Below are positions 1,406 to 9,930 of a stretch of DNA of 32,136 nucleotides, piece by piece. The stretch covers positions 1 through 32,136 of the forward strand of contig JAQWRB010000129.1 of the NCBI GenBank assembly GCA_029243935.1, written 5' to 3'. Position numbers and translations under genes: made by a program. Below the pieces are notes generated by a model. It had not been told where the DNA came from. It saw only the letters and a program-made list of their open reading frames with translations, and made no database searches. The number at the start of each line of letters is the position of its first letter. The stretch's first letter is position 1. This DNA comes from Alphaproteobacteria bacterium (lineage in GTDB: Bacteria > Pseudomonadota > Alphaproteobacteria > TMED109).

Positions 1406-1513
1406 TATTATCCTAATTAAATAAATATAATATTTATGTAAAATAATTTAGTTTATTTGATATATTTTTACTACATATATGTTTATATATTTGGTGATAT
1501 TGGATATAATAAA

Positions 1514-4042
1514 ATGTTTAATTATAGTTCACATACAAATACTTTTTTTAAGTCTCAAGATAATTTAGGAAGCTTAATTGGGGTACTAGGTCCAACTAAT
1601 ACTGGAAAAACCTATTACGCGATAGAAAGAATGCTTAAATTCTCTTCTGGAATAATAGGCTGTCCTTTGAGGCTTTTAGCTAGGGAAGTATATGATAAAT
1701 TAGTAAGAAAAAAGGGATTACTAAACATAGCATTAATTACAGGAGAAGAGAGAATAGTTCCAGAGACAGCAAAATATTTTGTTTGCACAGTAGAGGCTAT
1801 GCCTAATAATTTAAAAGTAGATTTTGTAGCAATCGATGAAATACAGCTTTGTAGCCATAACGATAGAGGGCATATATTTACGGACAAAATACTAAATGTT
1901 AAGGGTGAACAAGAGACTATGTTTTTAGGGTCAGATAGCTTAGAAGTTTTATTAAAATTTATTTACCCCAGTATAATTATTAAAAAAATGAAACGTTTTT
2001 CAAATCTGCAATATGTAGGGAAAACCAAACTAATTAGAATGCCAAGAAGGTCTGCGATTATCTCTTTTTCTATTAATGATGTTTATGAAATTGCAGAATT
2101 AGTTAAACGGAAACATGGTGGTACAGCAGTTGTTTTAGGAGCGCTAAGTCCTAAGACAAGAAATGCTCAAGTAGAATTATATGAATCAGGCGAAGTCGAT
2201 TATTTGGTAGCGACCGATGCTATTGGTATGGGGTTAAATATGAATATTAATCATGTATCTTTTTCAAAACTAAATAAATTTGATGGAAGGAAAACACGAC
2301 CTTTAACTATTGCAGAATTAGCTCAGATAGCAGGTAGAGCAGGAAGATATAAAAGTGATGGTTCTTTTGGCACTACTGCTGACTGTTTTAAATTTACTCA
2401 ACATATGATTGATTCCATAGAAAACCATGTGTTTCCACATATTAATAGTATGATTTGGAGAAACAGTTCCTTGGATTTTTCTTCTTTAAGACTATTGTTA
2501 AGAAGTTTAAGTATGATGCCTAGTAAGCCGTATTTAATATTAAGCCCTGAAGCAGATGACGAAAGATTATTAAAAACCTTATCTAAAAACCCTAATATTA
2601 TTAATAGGCTCGATGGAGTAAGTGAAATAAAATTATTATGGGAAATATGCTCTATTCCAGATTATAGCAAAAATTTTGATGATTCACATCCTAAACTTTT
2701 AGAAGAGCTTTTCTTATTTATTACAGATAAGGGTGAAATTCCTGAAAATTGGGTTAATAAAAAGTTAGATGAGTTAAATAATATTAAAGGTGAATTAGAT
2801 TCATTAGGGACTAGATTAGCTAATGTGAGAACATGGAATTATATTTCTAATCATAAAAGTTGGATTAATAATAAAAGTGAGTTAGCAGGTAGAGCAAGAT
2901 ATATTGAAAATAGATTATCCGATGCTTTACATGAAGGGTTGGTAGAAAGATTTGTTGATTACAAGATGGCAAAATTTTCTAAACATTTAGGAGTAGAAAG
3001 TAATTTAGTGGCTAGTATTTCTAAGGATAACTCAGTTTTGGTTGAGGGACATTTTATAGGTAAATTAGAAGGTTTTAATTTTATTAATGAAGTGTCTAAA
3101 AATATACAGGATAAAAAAGAGGTTTTAAAGGTTGTAAGAAGAACATTGGCTAAAGAACTAAAAAATAGGGTAAAACTTTTTCAAAAGTGTGAAGATAATG
3201 AGTTAAGTTTTGATAAACAAATGAATATTTTTTGGAAAAAACATTTGTTAGGTAAATTAATAAAAGGTTCTTCAGTTATTAAGCCTAGAATATTTATACA
3301 AAATTTTATTTTACTAGATGATCTGGATAAAAAAAATATAAAAAAAAGGTTAGTATTGTTTTTAAAGAAAACTATTAATCATATTATGAACCCCCTTATA
3401 CTTTTAAATACAAAATTTAAAGAAGGAGAAGCTAATGGATTAATATATCAACTGAATGATTATTTAGGAGCAGTGCAAATTTCAAAAGTAAAGGAATTAG
3501 TGGGTAACCTTTCTATAAAAGATAAAAAAATACTTATGAATTCTGGTGTGAAAATAGGAGAACTATTTATATGGGTGCCAGATTTATTTAAAAAAAAACA
3601 ATCAAATTTTTTCTGGTGCTTAAGACAAATATATTTCGAAATTCAAAATAAAACTTCATACCCTGATATTTATTATCCAATAAATTTAAAATATATGCCC
3701 AAAGAATTAATTTATGCCCATGAATTTATTTTAATAGGGGACAGTTATTATAATGTTAAACTTATAGAAAGTGTAATAGTAAAGTTTAAATCTATAATAA
3801 AATCTAAAAGCATATTTTTTTTAAATAAAAAGAATATGACTATTCTTAAAAAAGATTATAATATTACACACAAGCAATTTAAAAATATTCTTAATATACT
3901 GGGCTATGAGAGAGATAAAAAGAATTTAGTAAAATATATTCTTAGGAATAAAAAAGAATCTTCTACTAAGGACATTTTAGTAAGCAATAAAAAAAATATC
4001 AATTCTCCATTTTCGATATTAAAAAATTTAGTAATTAATTAA
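1514..4042 (+). CDS. SUV3-like superfamily 2 ATP-dependent RNA helicase
   Basis: GPTNTGKTYYAIERM (Walker A), DEIQ (motif II), LVATDAIGMGLNM and QIAGRAGRY (motifs V/VI). ORF track starts at 1457; the ATG at 1514 (MFNYSSHTNTF) is a more likely start. Confidence 0.88.
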   Translation: MFNYSSHTNTFFKSQDNLGSLIGVLGPTNTGKTYYAIERMLKFSSGIIGCPLRLLAREVYDKLVRKKGLLNIALITGEERIVPETAKYFVCTVEAMPNNLKVDFVAIDEIQLCSHNDRGHIFTDKILNVKGEQETMFLGSDSLEVLLKFIYPSIIIKKMKRFSNLQYVGKTKLIRMPRRSAIISFSINDVYEIAELVKRKHGGTAVVLGALSPKTRNAQVELYESGEVDYLVATDAIGMGLNMNINHVSFSKLNKFDGRKTRPLTIAELAQIAGRAGRYKSDGSFGTTADCFKFTQHMIDSIENHVFPHINSMIWRNSSLDFSSLRLLLRSLSMMPSKPYLILSPEADDERLLKTLSKNPNIINRLDGVSEIKLLWEICSIPDYSKNFDDSHPKLLEELFLFITDKGEIPENWVNKKLDELNNIKGELDSLGTRLANVRTWNYISNHKSWINNKSELAGRARYIENRLSDALHEGLVERFVDYKMAKFSKHLGVESNLVASISKDNSVLVEGHFIGKLEGFNFINEVSKNIQDKKEVLKVVRRTLAKELKNRVKLFQKCEDNELSFDKQMNIFWKKHLLGKLIKGSSVIKPRIFIQNFILLDDLDKKNIKKRLVLFLKKTINHIMNPLILLNTKFKEGEANGLIYQLNDYLGAVQISKVKELVGNLSIKDKKILMNSGVKIGELFIWVPDLFKKKQSNFFWCLRQIYFEIQNKTSYPDIYYPINLKYMPKELIYAHEFILIGDSYYNVKLIESVIVKFKSIIKSKSIFFLNKKNMTILKKDYNITHKQFKNILNILGYERDKKNLVKYILRNKKESSTKDILVSNKKNINSPFSILKNLVIN

Positions 4043-4165: not shown

Positions 4166-4618
4166 ATGTTTGATTCTTTTAAAAATATTTTTAAAAATAC
4201 TGATGTAGAGATTAAAGATTCTGATGATGATTATAAGGTTGCTTGTGCTGCCATATTATGTGAGGCGGCTTCAATGGATGGAGATTTTGATGAAAATGAA
4301 AAAACTCTAATATTAGCTTTAATTCAAAAACAATTTAATATTGATGCAGATCAGGCCAATAATATATTAATTGAAGGCAAAAACTTATCAGAAAATGCAA
4401 CACAATTATATGGTTTTACAAGGGTGATAAAAGAATCTTGGGAGTTAGAAAAAAGAATTAGATTGCTTGAGATGTTATGGGAAGTAGCATATGTTGACGG
4501 AAATTTAGATGCTGCTGAAGATATGCTGATCAGAAGAATTGCTGGACTTATCCATGTCGAGGATAGAGATAGAATGGAAGCAAAACAAAAAATTTTAAAA
4601 AATTTAAATAATTTTTAG
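4166..4618 (+). CDS. TerB-like (tellurite-resistance TerB fold) protein
   Basis: All-helical protein with two acidic repeat-like motifs: [22 protein letters not shown] and [31 protein letters not shown], typical of TerB domains; stop TAG. Confidence 0.8.
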
Positions 4619-4638: not shown

Positions 4639-4971
4639 ATGACTTATGTTGTAACTGAAGAGTGTATTAAATGTAAATTTACAGATTGTGTAGAAGTCTG
4701 TCCTGTAGATTGTTTTTATGAAGGAGAAAACATGTTGGTGATAAACCCTGATGAGTGTATAGACTGCGGAGTTTGTGAGCCTGAGTGTCCTGCAGAAGCT
4801 ATTTTGCCTGACTCGGATACAGAAGCGGATAAGTGGATTGATTTAAATGCAAAGCAATCAAATATTTGGCCGAATATTACTGAAAAGAAAGAACAACTAA
4901 GTGATGCTGAAGATTACCAAGGAATGAAAAATAAATTTGAACAATTCTATTCTGATAAACCAGGAGAATAA
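4639..4971 (+). CDS. fdxA: Seven-iron ferredoxin, FdxA type
   Basis: [55 protein letters not shown], two Fe-S cluster motifs; upstream AGAGAAGG RBS-like sequence. Confidence 0.95.
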
Positions 4972-4998: not shown

Positions 4999-5499
4999 AT
5001 GGACACTATAGAAAATAAATACGAAATAGGTGATTGGTTAATATATCCTAAACATGGTTTAGGTAAAGCTATAAATTATGAAACTCAGACAATTCTTAAA
5101 AAGAAAGTAAATTTTTTAGTAGTGTTTTTTGAGCAAGAGAGAATGACTTTACATATTCCTGTTAACAAACTAAATGAATTAGGTATGAGGTCTATTTCTG
5201 AGAAAGCTGAAATGAAGGAAGCGCTAATTACTTTAAAAGGCAAAGCTAGAATAAGAAAAACTATGTGGGCTAAAAGAGAAAAAGATTATAAAGATAAATT
5301 AGGTAAAGGTGACCCTGTTTCAGTTGCAGAAGTGCTAAGGGATTTGTATAGGGGGGAAGGTGATCCTGAGCAATCTTATAGCGAAAGACAATTATATGAG
5401 ATGGCATTAGATCGTTTTGCTCGTGAAATGGTTGCTGTTAATGACACCTCTTTGGAAGAAGCTATTAAAAAAACCGAAGAAAACCTTAAGGTTAAGTAA
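4999..5499 (+). CDS. carD: CarD family transcriptional regulator
   Basis: N-terminal YEIGDWLIYPKHGLGKA (RNAP-interaction domain) and helical C-terminus with AEVLRDLYR...LSYSERQLYEMALDRFAREM-like segment. Confidence 0.92.
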   Translation: MDTIENKYEIGDWLIYPKHGLGKAINYETQTILKKKVNFLVVFFEQERMTLHIPVNKLNELGMRSISEKAEMKEALITLKGKARIRKTMWAKREKDYKDKLGKGDPVSVAEVLRDLYRGEGDPEQSYSERQLYEMALDRFAREMVAVNDTSLEEAIKKTEENLKVK

Positions 5500-5518: not shown

Positions 5519-6367
5519 ATGAGCAGCTATGAATTAAATGCTCATACAGATTATGAAAAAAAAATATCTGATAATAATATCAGAATACATAATTTAGGCT
5601 CATTTGAGAGAGTATGGGTTATAGGGTCTGTAAGAGGTAAAGCAGATCCATTTGAAAAGATTTGTAAACAGATATTAGATAAAAGCAAACCAAAGGACAG
5701 ATTAGTTTTTACTGGAAATTTAGTTGGTAGTAATAATAATAAAATTAATGAATCAAAAAAAGTTGTTGATATAGCATTAAAATTAAGAGCTTTTTTTATG
5801 TCAAATAGTGCTTTTGATGTAAACGATATTGTTTTTTTAAGAGGATGTTTTGAAGAGCTTTTGGACAAATCTCGAGAGCTTCATATGTCACCTAATCCAT
5901 TAGAATTAGTAGAGTGGATGTATAGTAAAGGTTTAGATAAAATTTTAGAATCTTATGATATTGCATCATCTTTATTATATCATGCGGCAAGAGATGGAGC
6001 TTCTGCATTATCTAGGGCATCAGTAGAAATAAATAGAGCAATAGATAAGAATTCAGGACATTCTAATTATATGTCTTCTCTAAAACGCTTAGCATATAAT
6101 GAAGAAAAAACACTTTTATTTGTTTCTGCTGGCTTATCTAAAGATAGGCCATTAGAAGCGCAAAGTGATGAGTTATGGTGGGGCGGAGGTTTTTCTAATT
6201 TAGATGAGCCATACCGAGATATGGTTAGGTTAATCAGAGGGTTTGATCCAAAAGAAGAAGGAATTGCTTCAGGAAAATTCGGTGTAACTTTGGATGGAGG
6301 TGCAGATCAAGTTTTTGCTGCGCTTTTTAAAAAAAATGGTCAATTATTAGAAACTATTCAAAATTAG
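5519..6367 (+). CDS. Divergent metallophosphoesterase (PP2A/ApaH-like) homologue with degenerate catalytic motifs
   Basis: Motif order matches Ser/Thr phosphatases (VIGSVRGKADPFEKI; LVFTGNLVGSNNN; VFLRGCFEELL; LFVSAGLSKDRPLEAQSDELWW; IRGFDP; GVTLDGGADQVFAALF), but metal ligands of GDxHG, GDxVDRG, GNHE, HAG and GHTP are substituted. Confidence 0.7.
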   Translation: MSSYELNAHTDYEKKISDNNIRIHNLGSFERVWVIGSVRGKADPFEKICKQILDKSKPKDRLVFTGNLVGSNNNKINESKKVVDIALKLRAFFMSNSAFDVNDIVFLRGCFEELLDKSRELHMSPNPLELVEWMYSKGLDKILESYDIASSLLYHAARDGASALSRASVEINRAIDKNSGHSNYMSSLKRLAYNEEKTLLFVSAGLSKDRPLEAQSDELWWGGGFSNLDEPYRDMVRLIRGFDPKEEGIASGKFGVTLDGGADQVFAALFKKNGQLLETIQN

Positions 6368-6393: not shown

Positions 6394-9063
6394 ATGAGTG
6401 ATATTTCAAAAGAAACTTTTAGAGAAACTATAGAAGTACAAGGTCAAAACTATGATTATTTTTCATTAAAAAAAGCTAGTGATATTTTTGGAGACTTAAC
6501 TACTCTTCCTTATTCTTTAAAAGTAATTTTAGAAAATTTATTAAGAAATTTTGATGGAAAAATTGTTACAAAAGATCATATAGAAGCTTTGATTGGGTTT
6601 AATAAAAGTAATGACCAAGATTTAGATTTAGCATATTCTCCGGCAAGAGTTTTAATGCAAGATTTTACAGGAGTACCAGCTGTAGTAGATTTAGCTGCAA
6701 TGAGAGATGCAGTAAATAGTTTTGGTGTAGATGTTTCTAAAATTAATCCTCTCTCTCCTGTAGATTTAGTAATAGATCATTCAGTAGCAGTTGATAATTA
6801 CGGCACAAAAAATGCCTTTGAAGAGAATGTAAAAGTTGAATTTTCAAGAAATAAGGAACGCTATTCTTTCTTGAGATGGGGGCAACAAGCTTTTGAGAAT
6901 TTTAGAGTGGTACCTCCTGGAACAGGAATATGTCACCAAGTAAATTTAGAAAATTTAGCAAAAGTCATTTGGACAAAAAAAGTTAATGATAGATTAATAG
7001 CTTATCCAGACACATTAGTAGGAACTGATAGTCATACAACAATGGTTAATGGCTTAGCTGTATTAGGATGGGGAGTTGGCGGAATAGAAGCTGAGTCTGT
7101 AATGTTAGGTCAGCCTATTTCTATGCGCATACCTGAAGTTATTGGTTTTAAGTTAGAAGGCTCTTTGCCTGAAGGAGTAACTGCTACAGATTTAGTTTTA
7201 ACTATTACAGAAACTTTGAGGAAAAAAGGTGTAGTAGGAAAATTTGTAGAGTTTTTTGGTCCTGGATTAAATGATTTAGCCATTGCTGATAGAGCTACTA
7301 TTGCAAATATGGCCCCAGAATATGGTGCTACTTGTGGATTCTTTCCAATAGATAAAGAAACATGTGAATATTTAAAATTTACAGGAAGAGAATTTAATTT
7401 AGTAGAAGCTTATGCCAAAGTACAAGGAATGTGGAGAGATAAAAATACAAATGATCCGTTATTTACAGATTTTTTGTCAATAAATATGGATGGTATCAAA
7501 CCAAGTATGGCCGGACCTAAACGCCCACAAGATAGAGTAGAGTTAGTTAATGTTAAAGAAGAAACTTTTAAATTTATAGAAAAAGATTTAGAAATCAAAG
7601 CATTAAATCAGGATTATATGGATAATAAAAAAGAATTAGATAATGGTGATGTAGTAATTGCAGCTATTACTTCTTGCACTAATACATCAAATCCTTCTGT
7701 AATGTTAGCTGCCGGTTTATTAGCAAAAAAAGCAGTAAGTTTGGGATTAAAAAGAAAGTCATGGGTAAAAACTTCTTTAGCACCAGGCAGTCAAGTTGTA
7801 ACGGATTATTTAAATGCAGCTGGTTTGATAGAGCCCTTAGAAGAGTTAGGTTTTCATGTAGTTGGTTATGGCTGTACAACTTGTATTGGTAATTCTGGTC
7901 CTTTAGATACAAACATTAAAGACCAAATAGAAAATAAAAACTTGTCGGTATCAGCAGTTCTATCTGGAAATAGAAATTTTGAAGGAAGAGTTAATCCTTT
8001 AGTAAAAGCTAATTGGTTGGCTTCACCACCTTTAGTAGTTGCATATGCGATTCTTGGTACCTTGGTAAAAGATATAACTACTGATGCATTAGGAGTAGAT
8101 TCACAAAATAATAAAATATTTTTATCTGATATATGGCCAAGTTCTTCAGAAATTAAAGAGGTGCTTAATAGATGTCTTACAGAAGATATGTTTAAAGAAC
8201 GTTATAAAGATGTTTTTTTAGGATCTAAAGAATGGATTGATATAGAAGCTGAAAAAGGCCTTACATATAATTGGGATATTGGTTCTACGTATGTAAGGTA
8301 TCCGCCATTTTTTAATAATATGAGTTTAGATATAAAACCTTTAAAAGATATAATAAATGCAAAATGCTTAGCCTTTTTAGGTGATTCAATCACCACAGAT
8401 CATATATCACCTGCAGGAGCCATTAAAAATGATGGCCCAGCAGCAAAATATCTTATGAATCATCAAGTATCAGAATTAAATTTCAATTCTTATGGAAGCA
8501 GAAGAGGAAATCATGAAGTAATGATGAGAGGTACTTTTGGAAATATTCGTATTCGTAATAAGATGGTTCCAAATAAAGAAGGTGGTTTAACTAAATATAG
8601 TACAAACAGTGAAGTTTTATCTATTTATGACGCTGCTATGAAATATAAAGAAGATAATATTGCATTAATGATTCTAGCAGGTAAGGAATATGGCACTGGA
8701 TCTTCAAGAGATTGGGCAGCTAAAGGCACAGCTTTATTAGGGGTTAGGCTAGTGCTAGCAGAAAGTTATGAAAGAATTCATCGTTCCAATCTGATAGGTA
8801 TGGGCATTCTTCCAGTAGAGTTTACAGATAACCAGTCTGCAGATAGTTTAAAGCTTTCAGGTTTTGAAACTTTTTCAATTATAAATATTATAAAGGAGGT
8901 AAACCCAGGTGCAGTTTTAAATCTAGATATAAGTTATCTGGACGGATCAAAAAAAACTATATCTGTATTATGTAGAATAGATACAAGCAATGAATTAGAT
9001 TATTATAAAAACGGTGGAATATTGCATTATGTTTTAAGAAATTTAATCAGGGATTCTGCATAA
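6394..9063 (+). CDS. acnA: Aconitate hydratase A
   Basis: 889 aa; LVGTDSHTTMVNGLAVLGWGVGGIEAE, AAITSCTNTSNPSVM, GYGCTTCIGNSGPL, GKEYGTGSSRDWAAKG (Fe-S cysteines and swivel-domain signature). Confidence 0.98.
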   Translation: MSDISKETFRETIEVQGQNYDYFSLKKASDIFGDLTTLPYSLKVILENLLRNFDGKIVTKDHIEALIGFNKSNDQDLDLAYSPARVLMQDFTGVPAVVDLAAMRDAVNSFGVDVSKINPLSPVDLVIDHSVAVDNYGTKNAFEENVKVEFSRNKERYSFLRWGQQAFENFRVVPPGTGICHQVNLENLAKVIWTKKVNDRLIAYPDTLVGTDSHTTMVNGLAVLGWGVGGIEAESVMLGQPISMRIPEVIGFKLEGSLPEGVTATDLVLTITETLRKKGVVGKFVEFFGPGLNDLAIADRATIANMAPEYGATCGFFPIDKETCEYLKFTGREFNLVEAYAKVQGMWRDKNTNDPLFTDFLSINMDGIKPSMAGPKRPQDRVELVNVKEETFKFIEKDLEIKALNQDYMDNKKELDNGDVVIAAITSCTNTSNPSVMLAAGLLAKKAVSLGLKRKSWVKTSLAPGSQVVTDYLNAAGLIEPLEELGFHVVGYGCTTCIGNSGPLDTNIKDQIENKNLSVSAVLSGNRNFEGRVNPLVKANWLASPPLVVAYAILGTLVKDITTDALGVDSQNNKIFLSDIWPSSSEIKEVLNRCLTEDMFKERYKDVFLGSKEWIDIEAEKGLTYNWDIGSTYVRYPPFFNNMSLDIKPLKDIINAKCLAFLGDSITTDHISPAGAIKNDGPAAKYLMNHQVSELNFNSYGSRRGNHEVMMRGTFGNIRIRNKMVPNKEGGLTKYSTNSEVLSIYDAAMKYKEDNIALMILAGKEYGTGSSRDWAAKGTALLGVRLVLAESYERIHRSNLIGMGILPVEFTDNQSADSLKLSGFETFSIINIIKEVNPGAVLNLDISYLDGSKKTISVLCRIDTSNELDYYKNGGILHYVLRNLIRDSA

Positions 9064-9930
9064 ATTTTTATTTTTTGTTTTGCTCTCTTGTTCTATAATA
9101 AAGTTTTTTATTCTTAATTTTAATTTATTGATGGCAGAGGCTTCGATTTGTCTTACTCTTTCTTTGCTAATTTTAAGTCTTATCCCAATTTTTTCTAAGG
9201 TATCAGGGGTTTGGCACATATGACGAGCGTTTATTATTATTTTCTCTCTATTGTCTAAGGAATCTAATGCTTTAACTAGCCATTTCTTTTTAGTTGATTT
9301 TTCATCTTTTTTTATGAAAGAATCTTCAATACTTTCTTGATATTTATCTACTAAAAAATTTTGCCATTCTTCTATTGTATCACTATTTAATGGAGAATTT
9401 AAAGAGGCGTCTTTTTTAAGAATATGGCTTTCTCTTTCAGAAATGAATTTTTCTTTAACTCCTAAAAGCCGAGCTGCGTTTTTTCTTTCTTCATAATTTA
9501 TCTCTCCATTAATTTGAAATCGTCTTAAATTAAAGAATAATGATTTTTGAGCTGAGCTAGATCCTATTTTTACTATAGACCAATTCTTTAAAACATATTC
9601 TTGAATAGTAGCTTTTACCCACCACCTTGAATAGGTGGAAAATCTTAAATCTCTAGATAGGTCAAATTTTTCGATAGCTAATAAAAGACCAATATGTCCT
9701 TCTTGAATTAAATCATTAAATGGAAGTCCATAATGCTTAAATTGTGATGCAATTCTAATAACTAATTTAGTGTAAGATAATATTATTTTCTCTAAAGCTT
9801 TAGTATCTCTATTGTTTTTCCACAATTTTGTAAGCGATTGCTCTTGTTCTTTAGATAGTAAAGGGGATTTCATAGATTCAGAGATAAATCTTTCTTCTAC
9901 TTTAATATAATTACTATTTTTTTCATTCAT
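9043..9930 (-). CDS. rpoH: RNA polymerase sigma-32 (heat-shock) factor
   Basis: HYGLPFNDLIQEGHIGLLLAIEKFDLSRDLRFSTYSRWWVKATIQEYVLKNWSIVKIGSSSAQKSLFFNLRR (region 2 plus RpoH box) and region 4 DNREKIIINARHM...LEKIGIRLKISKERVRQIEASAINKLK. 3' end overlaps the 3' end of acnA convergently. Confidence 0.94.
   Translation of the reverse strand: MNEKNSNYIKVEERFISESMKSPLLSKEQEQSLTKLWKNNRDTKALEKIILSYTKLVIRIASQFKHYGLPFNDLIQEGHIGLLLAIEKFDLSRDLRFSTYSRWWVKATIQEYVLKNWSIVKIGSSSAQKSLFFNLRRFQINGEINYEERKNAARLLGVKEKFISERESHILKKDASLNSPLNSDTIEEWQNFLVDKYQESIEDSFIKKDEKSTKKKWLVKALDSLDNREKIIINARHMCQTPDTLEKIGIRLKISKERVRQIEASAINKLKLRIKNFIIEQESKTKNKNLCRIPD

Follow-up and report, generated by a model that had tools for sequence, protein, structure and literature searches.

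A predicted PPP-type pseudophosphatase family encoded beside carD in Alphaproteobacteria

Introduction

The locus described here raises the question of what role an intact gene can play when it encodes a protein of the PPP/ApaH phosphatase fold whose metal-binding motifs have been replaced, and whether its position beside carD bears on that role. The gene was found in the window, which is the whole stretch of 32,136 nucleotides that was analysed (contig JAQWRB010000129.1 of assembly GCA_029243935.1). A CarD/CdnL homolog has been reported in virtually all alphaproteobacteria (PMC5324124), and the control of CarD/CdnL is only partly known (PMC11034885). Searches of the open-access literature for carD together with metallophosphoesterase, and for fdxA-carD-rpoH, retrieved nothing relevant, and the open-access CdnL papers did not mention a metallophosphatase neighbour.

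The gene and its locus

A preliminary description of this DNA had placed an intact ORF between carD and acnA and had listed five replaced motifs, GSVRG, GNLVGSN, GCFE, SAG and RGFDP. It was confirmed that the ORF at 5519-6367 has an ATG start and zero internal stops, and every one of the five motifs was found in its translation. The features of the locus are the following.

1457..4042, + strand: Suv3-like helicase gene, upstream end of the gene block, start codon uncertain (PF22527; synteny)
4166..4618, + strand: terB-like gene, same block (PF05099, 107 bits; synteny)
4639..4971, + strand: fdxA ferredoxin gene, same block (NF045490, 166.9 bits; synteny)
4999..5499, + strand: carD, with RID and CarD_C domains, conserved upstream partner (PF21095, 68.9 bits; PF02559, 35 bits; synteny)
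5519..6367, + strand: gene for the predicted pseudophosphatase (282 aa), of PPP/ApaH fold and lacking the metal site (ORF, AlphaFold2, Foldseek, alignment)
5624..5638, + strand: motif I, residues 36-40, GSVRG in place of GDxHG (translation and alignment)
5714..5734, + strand: motif II, residues 66-72, GNLVGSN in place of GDxVDRG (N67 in 132/139 and G70 in 138/139 members)
5843..5854, + strand: motif III, residues 109-112, GCFE in place of GNHE (family norm RGxQEE; Glu112 in 139/139)
6125..6133, + strand: motif IV, residues 203-205, SAG in place of HAG (translation and alignment)
6233..6250, + strand: motif V, residues 239-244, IRGFDP in place of VHGHT, RGFDP being residues 240-244 (R240 in 128/139 members)
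6394..9063, + strand: acnA, downstream neighbour of the pseudophosphatase gene; it abuts fdxA where carD and the pseudophosphatase gene have been lost
9043..9930, - strand: RpoH-type sigma factor gene; at 49 other member loci it lies downstream of the pseudophosphatase gene and in its orientation

The helicase, terB, fdxA, carD, pseudophosphatase and acnA genes thus follow one another on the plus strand, and the RpoH-type sigma gene comes next on the minus strand. Only 19 nt separate carD from the pseudophosphatase ORF and 26 nt separate the latter from acnA, and these short gaps suggest that the three genes would share a single transcript. The sigma factor gene of the window is antisense to acnA, with an overlap of 21 nt at the acnA end.

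Fold and remodelled active site

The PP2A/ApaH-like fold proposed earlier agreed with structure prediction, since the AlphaFold2 model of the window protein, built from 97 family sequences, presented a confident PPP/ApaH fold (pLDDT 93.2, pTM 0.89). When this model was submitted to Foldseek, the top matches were PPP/ApaH proteins only, the best being 2qjc (E 2.3e-9), with PP5, Rhizobiales-like phosphatase 2 (5vjv), lambda phosphatase and PP2A among the further matches and diadenosine tetraphosphatases among the nearest folds; the family profile also retrieved 5vjv and 2qjc by sequence. Curated models did not recognise the window protein, which scored 13.9 bits against Pfam Metallophos_3 (PF14582, cut-off 28.2) and 15.5 bits against NCBIfam ApaH (NF001204, cut-off 176) and had zero match to Pfam Metallophos (PF00149). 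Four distant family members were also far below the cut-offs of both collections, and zero Pfam or NCBIfam models cover the family. A Pfam match of the window protein to DNA_pol_E_B was at chance level (11.5 bits, E 0.2). A phmmer search of the PDB with the same protein returned mainly WD-repeat and designed repeat proteins, which lacked one convincing stretch and were rejected as spurious.

The state of the active site was read from an alignment of 139 family members with 22 canonical PPPs, taken as controls from the sampled genomes and compared in the same columns. Residues D37, H39, D67, D70, R71, N110, H111, H203 and H242 were intact in 22/22 controls. Among the family members, D37, D67 and D70 were each present in 0/139, the two metal-ligand aspartates thus never being Asp, and R71 was present in 40/139, N110 in 4/139, H111 in 2/139 and H242 in 4/139; the motif I His (H39) was kept in 108/139 and the motif IV His (H203) in 66/139. 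The window protein kept 0/6 metal ligands. Other residues were newly conserved across the family, namely W33 (138 of 139), D60 (137), N67 (132), G70 (138), R108 (134), Q111 (122), E113 (135), W220 (136) and R240 (128), while E112 was retained in all 139. The family signatures GNxxG, RGx(Q/F)EE and (V/I)RG(F/Y) were all present in the window protein.

Set against the intact controls, these family counts indicate that the motif losses are not due to chance, and on alignment evidence the site is best described as re-engineered and under constraint, more than simply eroded. The reading of the protein as a pseudophosphatase that would be unable to hold the two-metal centre, and that is predicted to lack phosphatase activity, is strongly supported. 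We regard the inactive fold and the reality of the family as highly probable. With 0/139 members canonical, the earlier proposal, in which the scaffold of a pseudophosphatase is preserved for a conserved non-enzymatic role, was upheld as a prediction. A second part of that proposal, the binding of a phospho-substrate, found no support, because the phosphate-site arginines R71 (DRG), R223 (WIR) and R255 are Ser, Gly and Gly in the window protein. These arginines are conserved in active paralogs and largely lost across the family, and because of their loss the usual phosphate site is gone; phosphate binding appears disfavoured.

It is very unlikely that the protein remains enzymatically active through an active site that has moved or changed. 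Such an enzyme could draw on the motif I and motif IV histidines kept in the members counted above and on E112, H181 and D259, which are near invariant; but H181 and D259 are common to canonical PPPs, so they do not mark a new site, both Asp ligands are gone in all members, the motif III Asn and the motif V His are left in four members each, and the window protein has neither of the remaining histidines.

Extent and descent of the family

Seven close relatives, from MarineAlpha9/TMED109-type and so-called Pelagibacterales MAGs, displayed 62-77% identity and identical losses. Distant homologs, 28-34% identical, came to light when 60 relatives were searched; with the window protein as sole query, independent relatives in this identity range were found at E 2e-23 or better. 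When the family profile was run against 385 alphaproteobacterial genomes, 134 had one full-length member each (170-404 bits); canonical PPPs followed, none of them above 65 bits. The window protein scored 385.8 bits with profile A2 and 304 bits with profile A3, both of which include the window sequence itself. When 299 genomes of the phylum were searched by profile, nothing beyond Alphaproteobacteria exceeded 72 bits, and the best match from outside the class, at that score, reads GDIHG/GDYIDRG/GNHE and is thus canonical; for this reason the family looks confined to Alphaproteobacteria in the sample of 385 class and 299 phylum genomes. The PLSDB plasmid search gave only weak matches (25-30% identity, 54-62 bits), mostly annotated as metallophosphoesterases.

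Within the window's GTDB family, pairwise dN/dS was about 0.07-0.26 for pairs with appreciable divergence, with dS near saturation for most pairs and the near-identical pair L003/L004 uninformative. The latter are gene copies (dS 0.006) that lie close to the ends of two contigs of a TMED109 MAG and probably reflect strain variation or assembly redundancy. At two other loci, L014 (~1480-1565) and L006 (~4001), the conserved N-terminus NAHTDYEKKI was observed without an in-frame upstream ATG, GTG or TTG, possibly pointing to an unusual start codon.

The window's clade is nested inside the family tree on a long branch, and its carD, rpoH and helicase genes are also fast-evolving. That long branch, together with the extreme state of the clade, in which the motif I and motif IV histidines are both gone, is what could be expected if, in a streamlined marine genome, an ordinary phosphatase had recently decayed. 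Yet the site is missing in all 139 members class-wide, the reading frames are uninterrupted and dN/dS values are low. Recent decay was rejected on the motif states of the relatives and on dN/dS, and is hardly credible; the preliminary description had named close relatives with canonical motifs as its mark, and none occurred among the 139 members. The best reading is that the family is ancient, has been inherited mostly vertically within Alphaproteobacteria and is apparently undescribed.

Association with carD

It was observed that carD lies upstream and on the same strand in 120/139 member loci, mostly abutting; the distance between the carD stop and the point where the profile match begins had a median of 140 nt and was <300 nt in 112/120. 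The other block partners were fdxA (106 of the 139 loci), the helicase gene (57), terB (53) and downstream rpoH (49). On the family tree, carD linkage amounted to 11 parsimony changes. No carD was found within about 6 kb of 18/139 members (L123, L124, L128, L163, L166, L170, L172, L175 and ten others), some of them on short contigs. At the genome level, CarD_C was found in 337/385 alphaproteobacterial genomes, and carD was present in 132/134 member-bearing genomes versus 205/251 others (Fisher p 1.6e-7, uncorrected for relatedness). One of the two member genomes without carD is 80% complete, and the other (G213) has two congeners with carD. Since 205 carD-bearing genomes do without the pseudophosphatase gene, CarD is not in need of it.

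The pattern of loss was also informative. In 20 genomes that have carD and lack the pseudophosphatase gene, the helicase-terB-fdxA-carD block was often kept, and in 5/20, from other families, rpoH lies directly downstream of carD. Inside the window's GTDB family, genus g5 has fdxA followed by acnA within a few bases (three genomes read, one 97% complete); carD and the pseudophosphatase gene are both absent genome-wide, and CarD_C was found nowhere in four g5 genomes. This absence (loci L264, L265 and L263) concerns a protein that is otherwise near universal in Alphaproteobacteria. Both genes are absent, with fdxA kept, in genus g8 and the single g3 genome, which are incomplete genomes, and terB is also kept in g5 and g8 where visible. 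Genus g7 retains the order terB-fdxA-carD-acnA without the pseudophosphatase gene. No genome of this GTDB family has the pseudophosphatase gene and lacks carD.

From the patterns in g5, g8, g3 and g7 it follows that, in the window's family, carD can exist without the pseudophosphatase gene and not the reverse, which is the strongest functional hint obtained. The joint loss in g5 could have been one deletion of adjacent genes. Gene order and the pattern of loss support a dependence of the pseudophosphatase on carD, and the link to carD, which had been offered as speculation, is now well supported by the 120/139 loci and by its never being broken in this direction in the window's family.

Another product of the block could be the partner, as fdxA, terB and the helicase gene share it. 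That the context is due to FdxA, TerB, the Suv3-like helicase or RpoH, with CarD merely adjacent, is improbable: these genes are common to the block and the helicase tree correlates with the pseudophosphatase tree as well as that of CarD does, but no neighbour is nearer or more common than carD (120/139, versus 106 for fdxA and about 50 for each of the others), and g5 and g8 lost carD and the pseudophosphatase gene yet kept fdxA, and terB where visible. The tree correlations were 0.59-0.73 (rho) with CarD and 0.63 with the helicase, and because the latter is equally high the coevolution signal is not specific to CarD.

A physical contact was approached with a fused-chain AlphaFold2 model, in which translation of locus L057 was carried from CarD across a single stop codon into the family member, with 34 paired rows (A4). 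Both parts had high pLDDT, joined by a disordered linker, and the pTM of 0.67, obtained without PAE, is little above the expectation for two independent domains.

In Caulobacter, the terminal AA of CdnL marks the protein for ClpXP (PMC11034885). A C-terminal Ala-Ala was present in 98/121 CarDs at member loci, and it was also kept in most sampled genomes without the pseudophosphatase gene. The CarD of the window (4999-5499) and those of L189-L194 lack it, which suggests a different control of CarD turnover in the window's clade. A role of the pseudophosphatase as a ClpXP adaptor for this degron was weakened as a candidate by the retention of the AA without the gene and its loss, with the gene present, in the window's family.

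The same observations bear on the possibility that the remodelled pocket, free of metal, senses a ligand such as Ap4A or (p)ppGpp and signals to CarD or to CarD turnover. In favour of this, pocket residues N67, R108, E112, E113 and R240 are 92-100% conserved with new identities, and diadenosine tetraphosphatases are among the nearest folds; against it stand the loss of the canonical phosphate-site arginines and the distribution of the CarD terminal AA, and we consider such a sensor unlikely.

Proposed role and significance

The reading that we prefer, with somewhat more confidence than doubt, is that of a non-enzymatic protein that takes part, by binding or as a scaffold, in the initiation of CarD-dependent transcription. 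The pseudophosphatase would be co-expressed with CarD, given the putative co-transcription, and may contact CarD or the CarD-RNA polymerase complex. Its former active site, remodelled around N67, R108, E112, E113, R240, W220 and W221, may be stabilised by salt bridges in place of metals, or may form a pocket for a partner or ligand; a charge pair between R240 and E112/E113 is the candidate replacement for the metals. We infer the physical contact with CarD or RNA polymerase and the regulatory role. More tentatively, and at somewhat less than even confidence, the family may represent a class-wide accessory of RNA polymerase initiation, in which a dead PPP phosphatase serves as a dedicated CarD/CdnL partner to tune or sense the rRNA and housekeeping transcription that depends on CarD.

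The family shares with the bacterial PPP/ApaH-like phosphatases (ApaH, PrpE, Rhizobiales-like phosphatase 2, lambda PP) the predicted fold, the broad arrangement of the five motifs in order and spacing, and scaffold residues including W221, Y146, H181 and D259, but differs from them in that the metal ligands, catalytic His and phosphate-site arginines are replaced and the profile scores are far below cut-offs. The B subunits of eukaryotic DNA polymerases contain an inactive calcineurin-like domain and act as structural subunits of the polymerase complex. They likewise present an inactive metallophosphatase fold, although from a different branch of the superfamily. The Apicomplexan PfPPP8, described in 2023 as the first pseudophosphatase of the PPP family (PMC10317984), has the PPP fold, and its motif II Asp is also replaced by Asn (GNLINRG in PfPPP8, GNxxG in the present family). 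In contrast to the family reported here, PfPPP8 is eukaryotic, has lost mainly one motif, acts in parasite cell division and has no CarD connection.

Bacterial PPP-type pseudophosphatases, present in about a third of the sampled alphaproteobacterial genomes, would be much older and broader than PfPPP8. Because curated models do not cover the family, any of its proteins annotated as a metallophosphoesterase would carry a wrong name. For the biology of Alphaproteobacteria, the conserved gene-order partner of carD provides a directly testable candidate for the control of CarD/CdnL.
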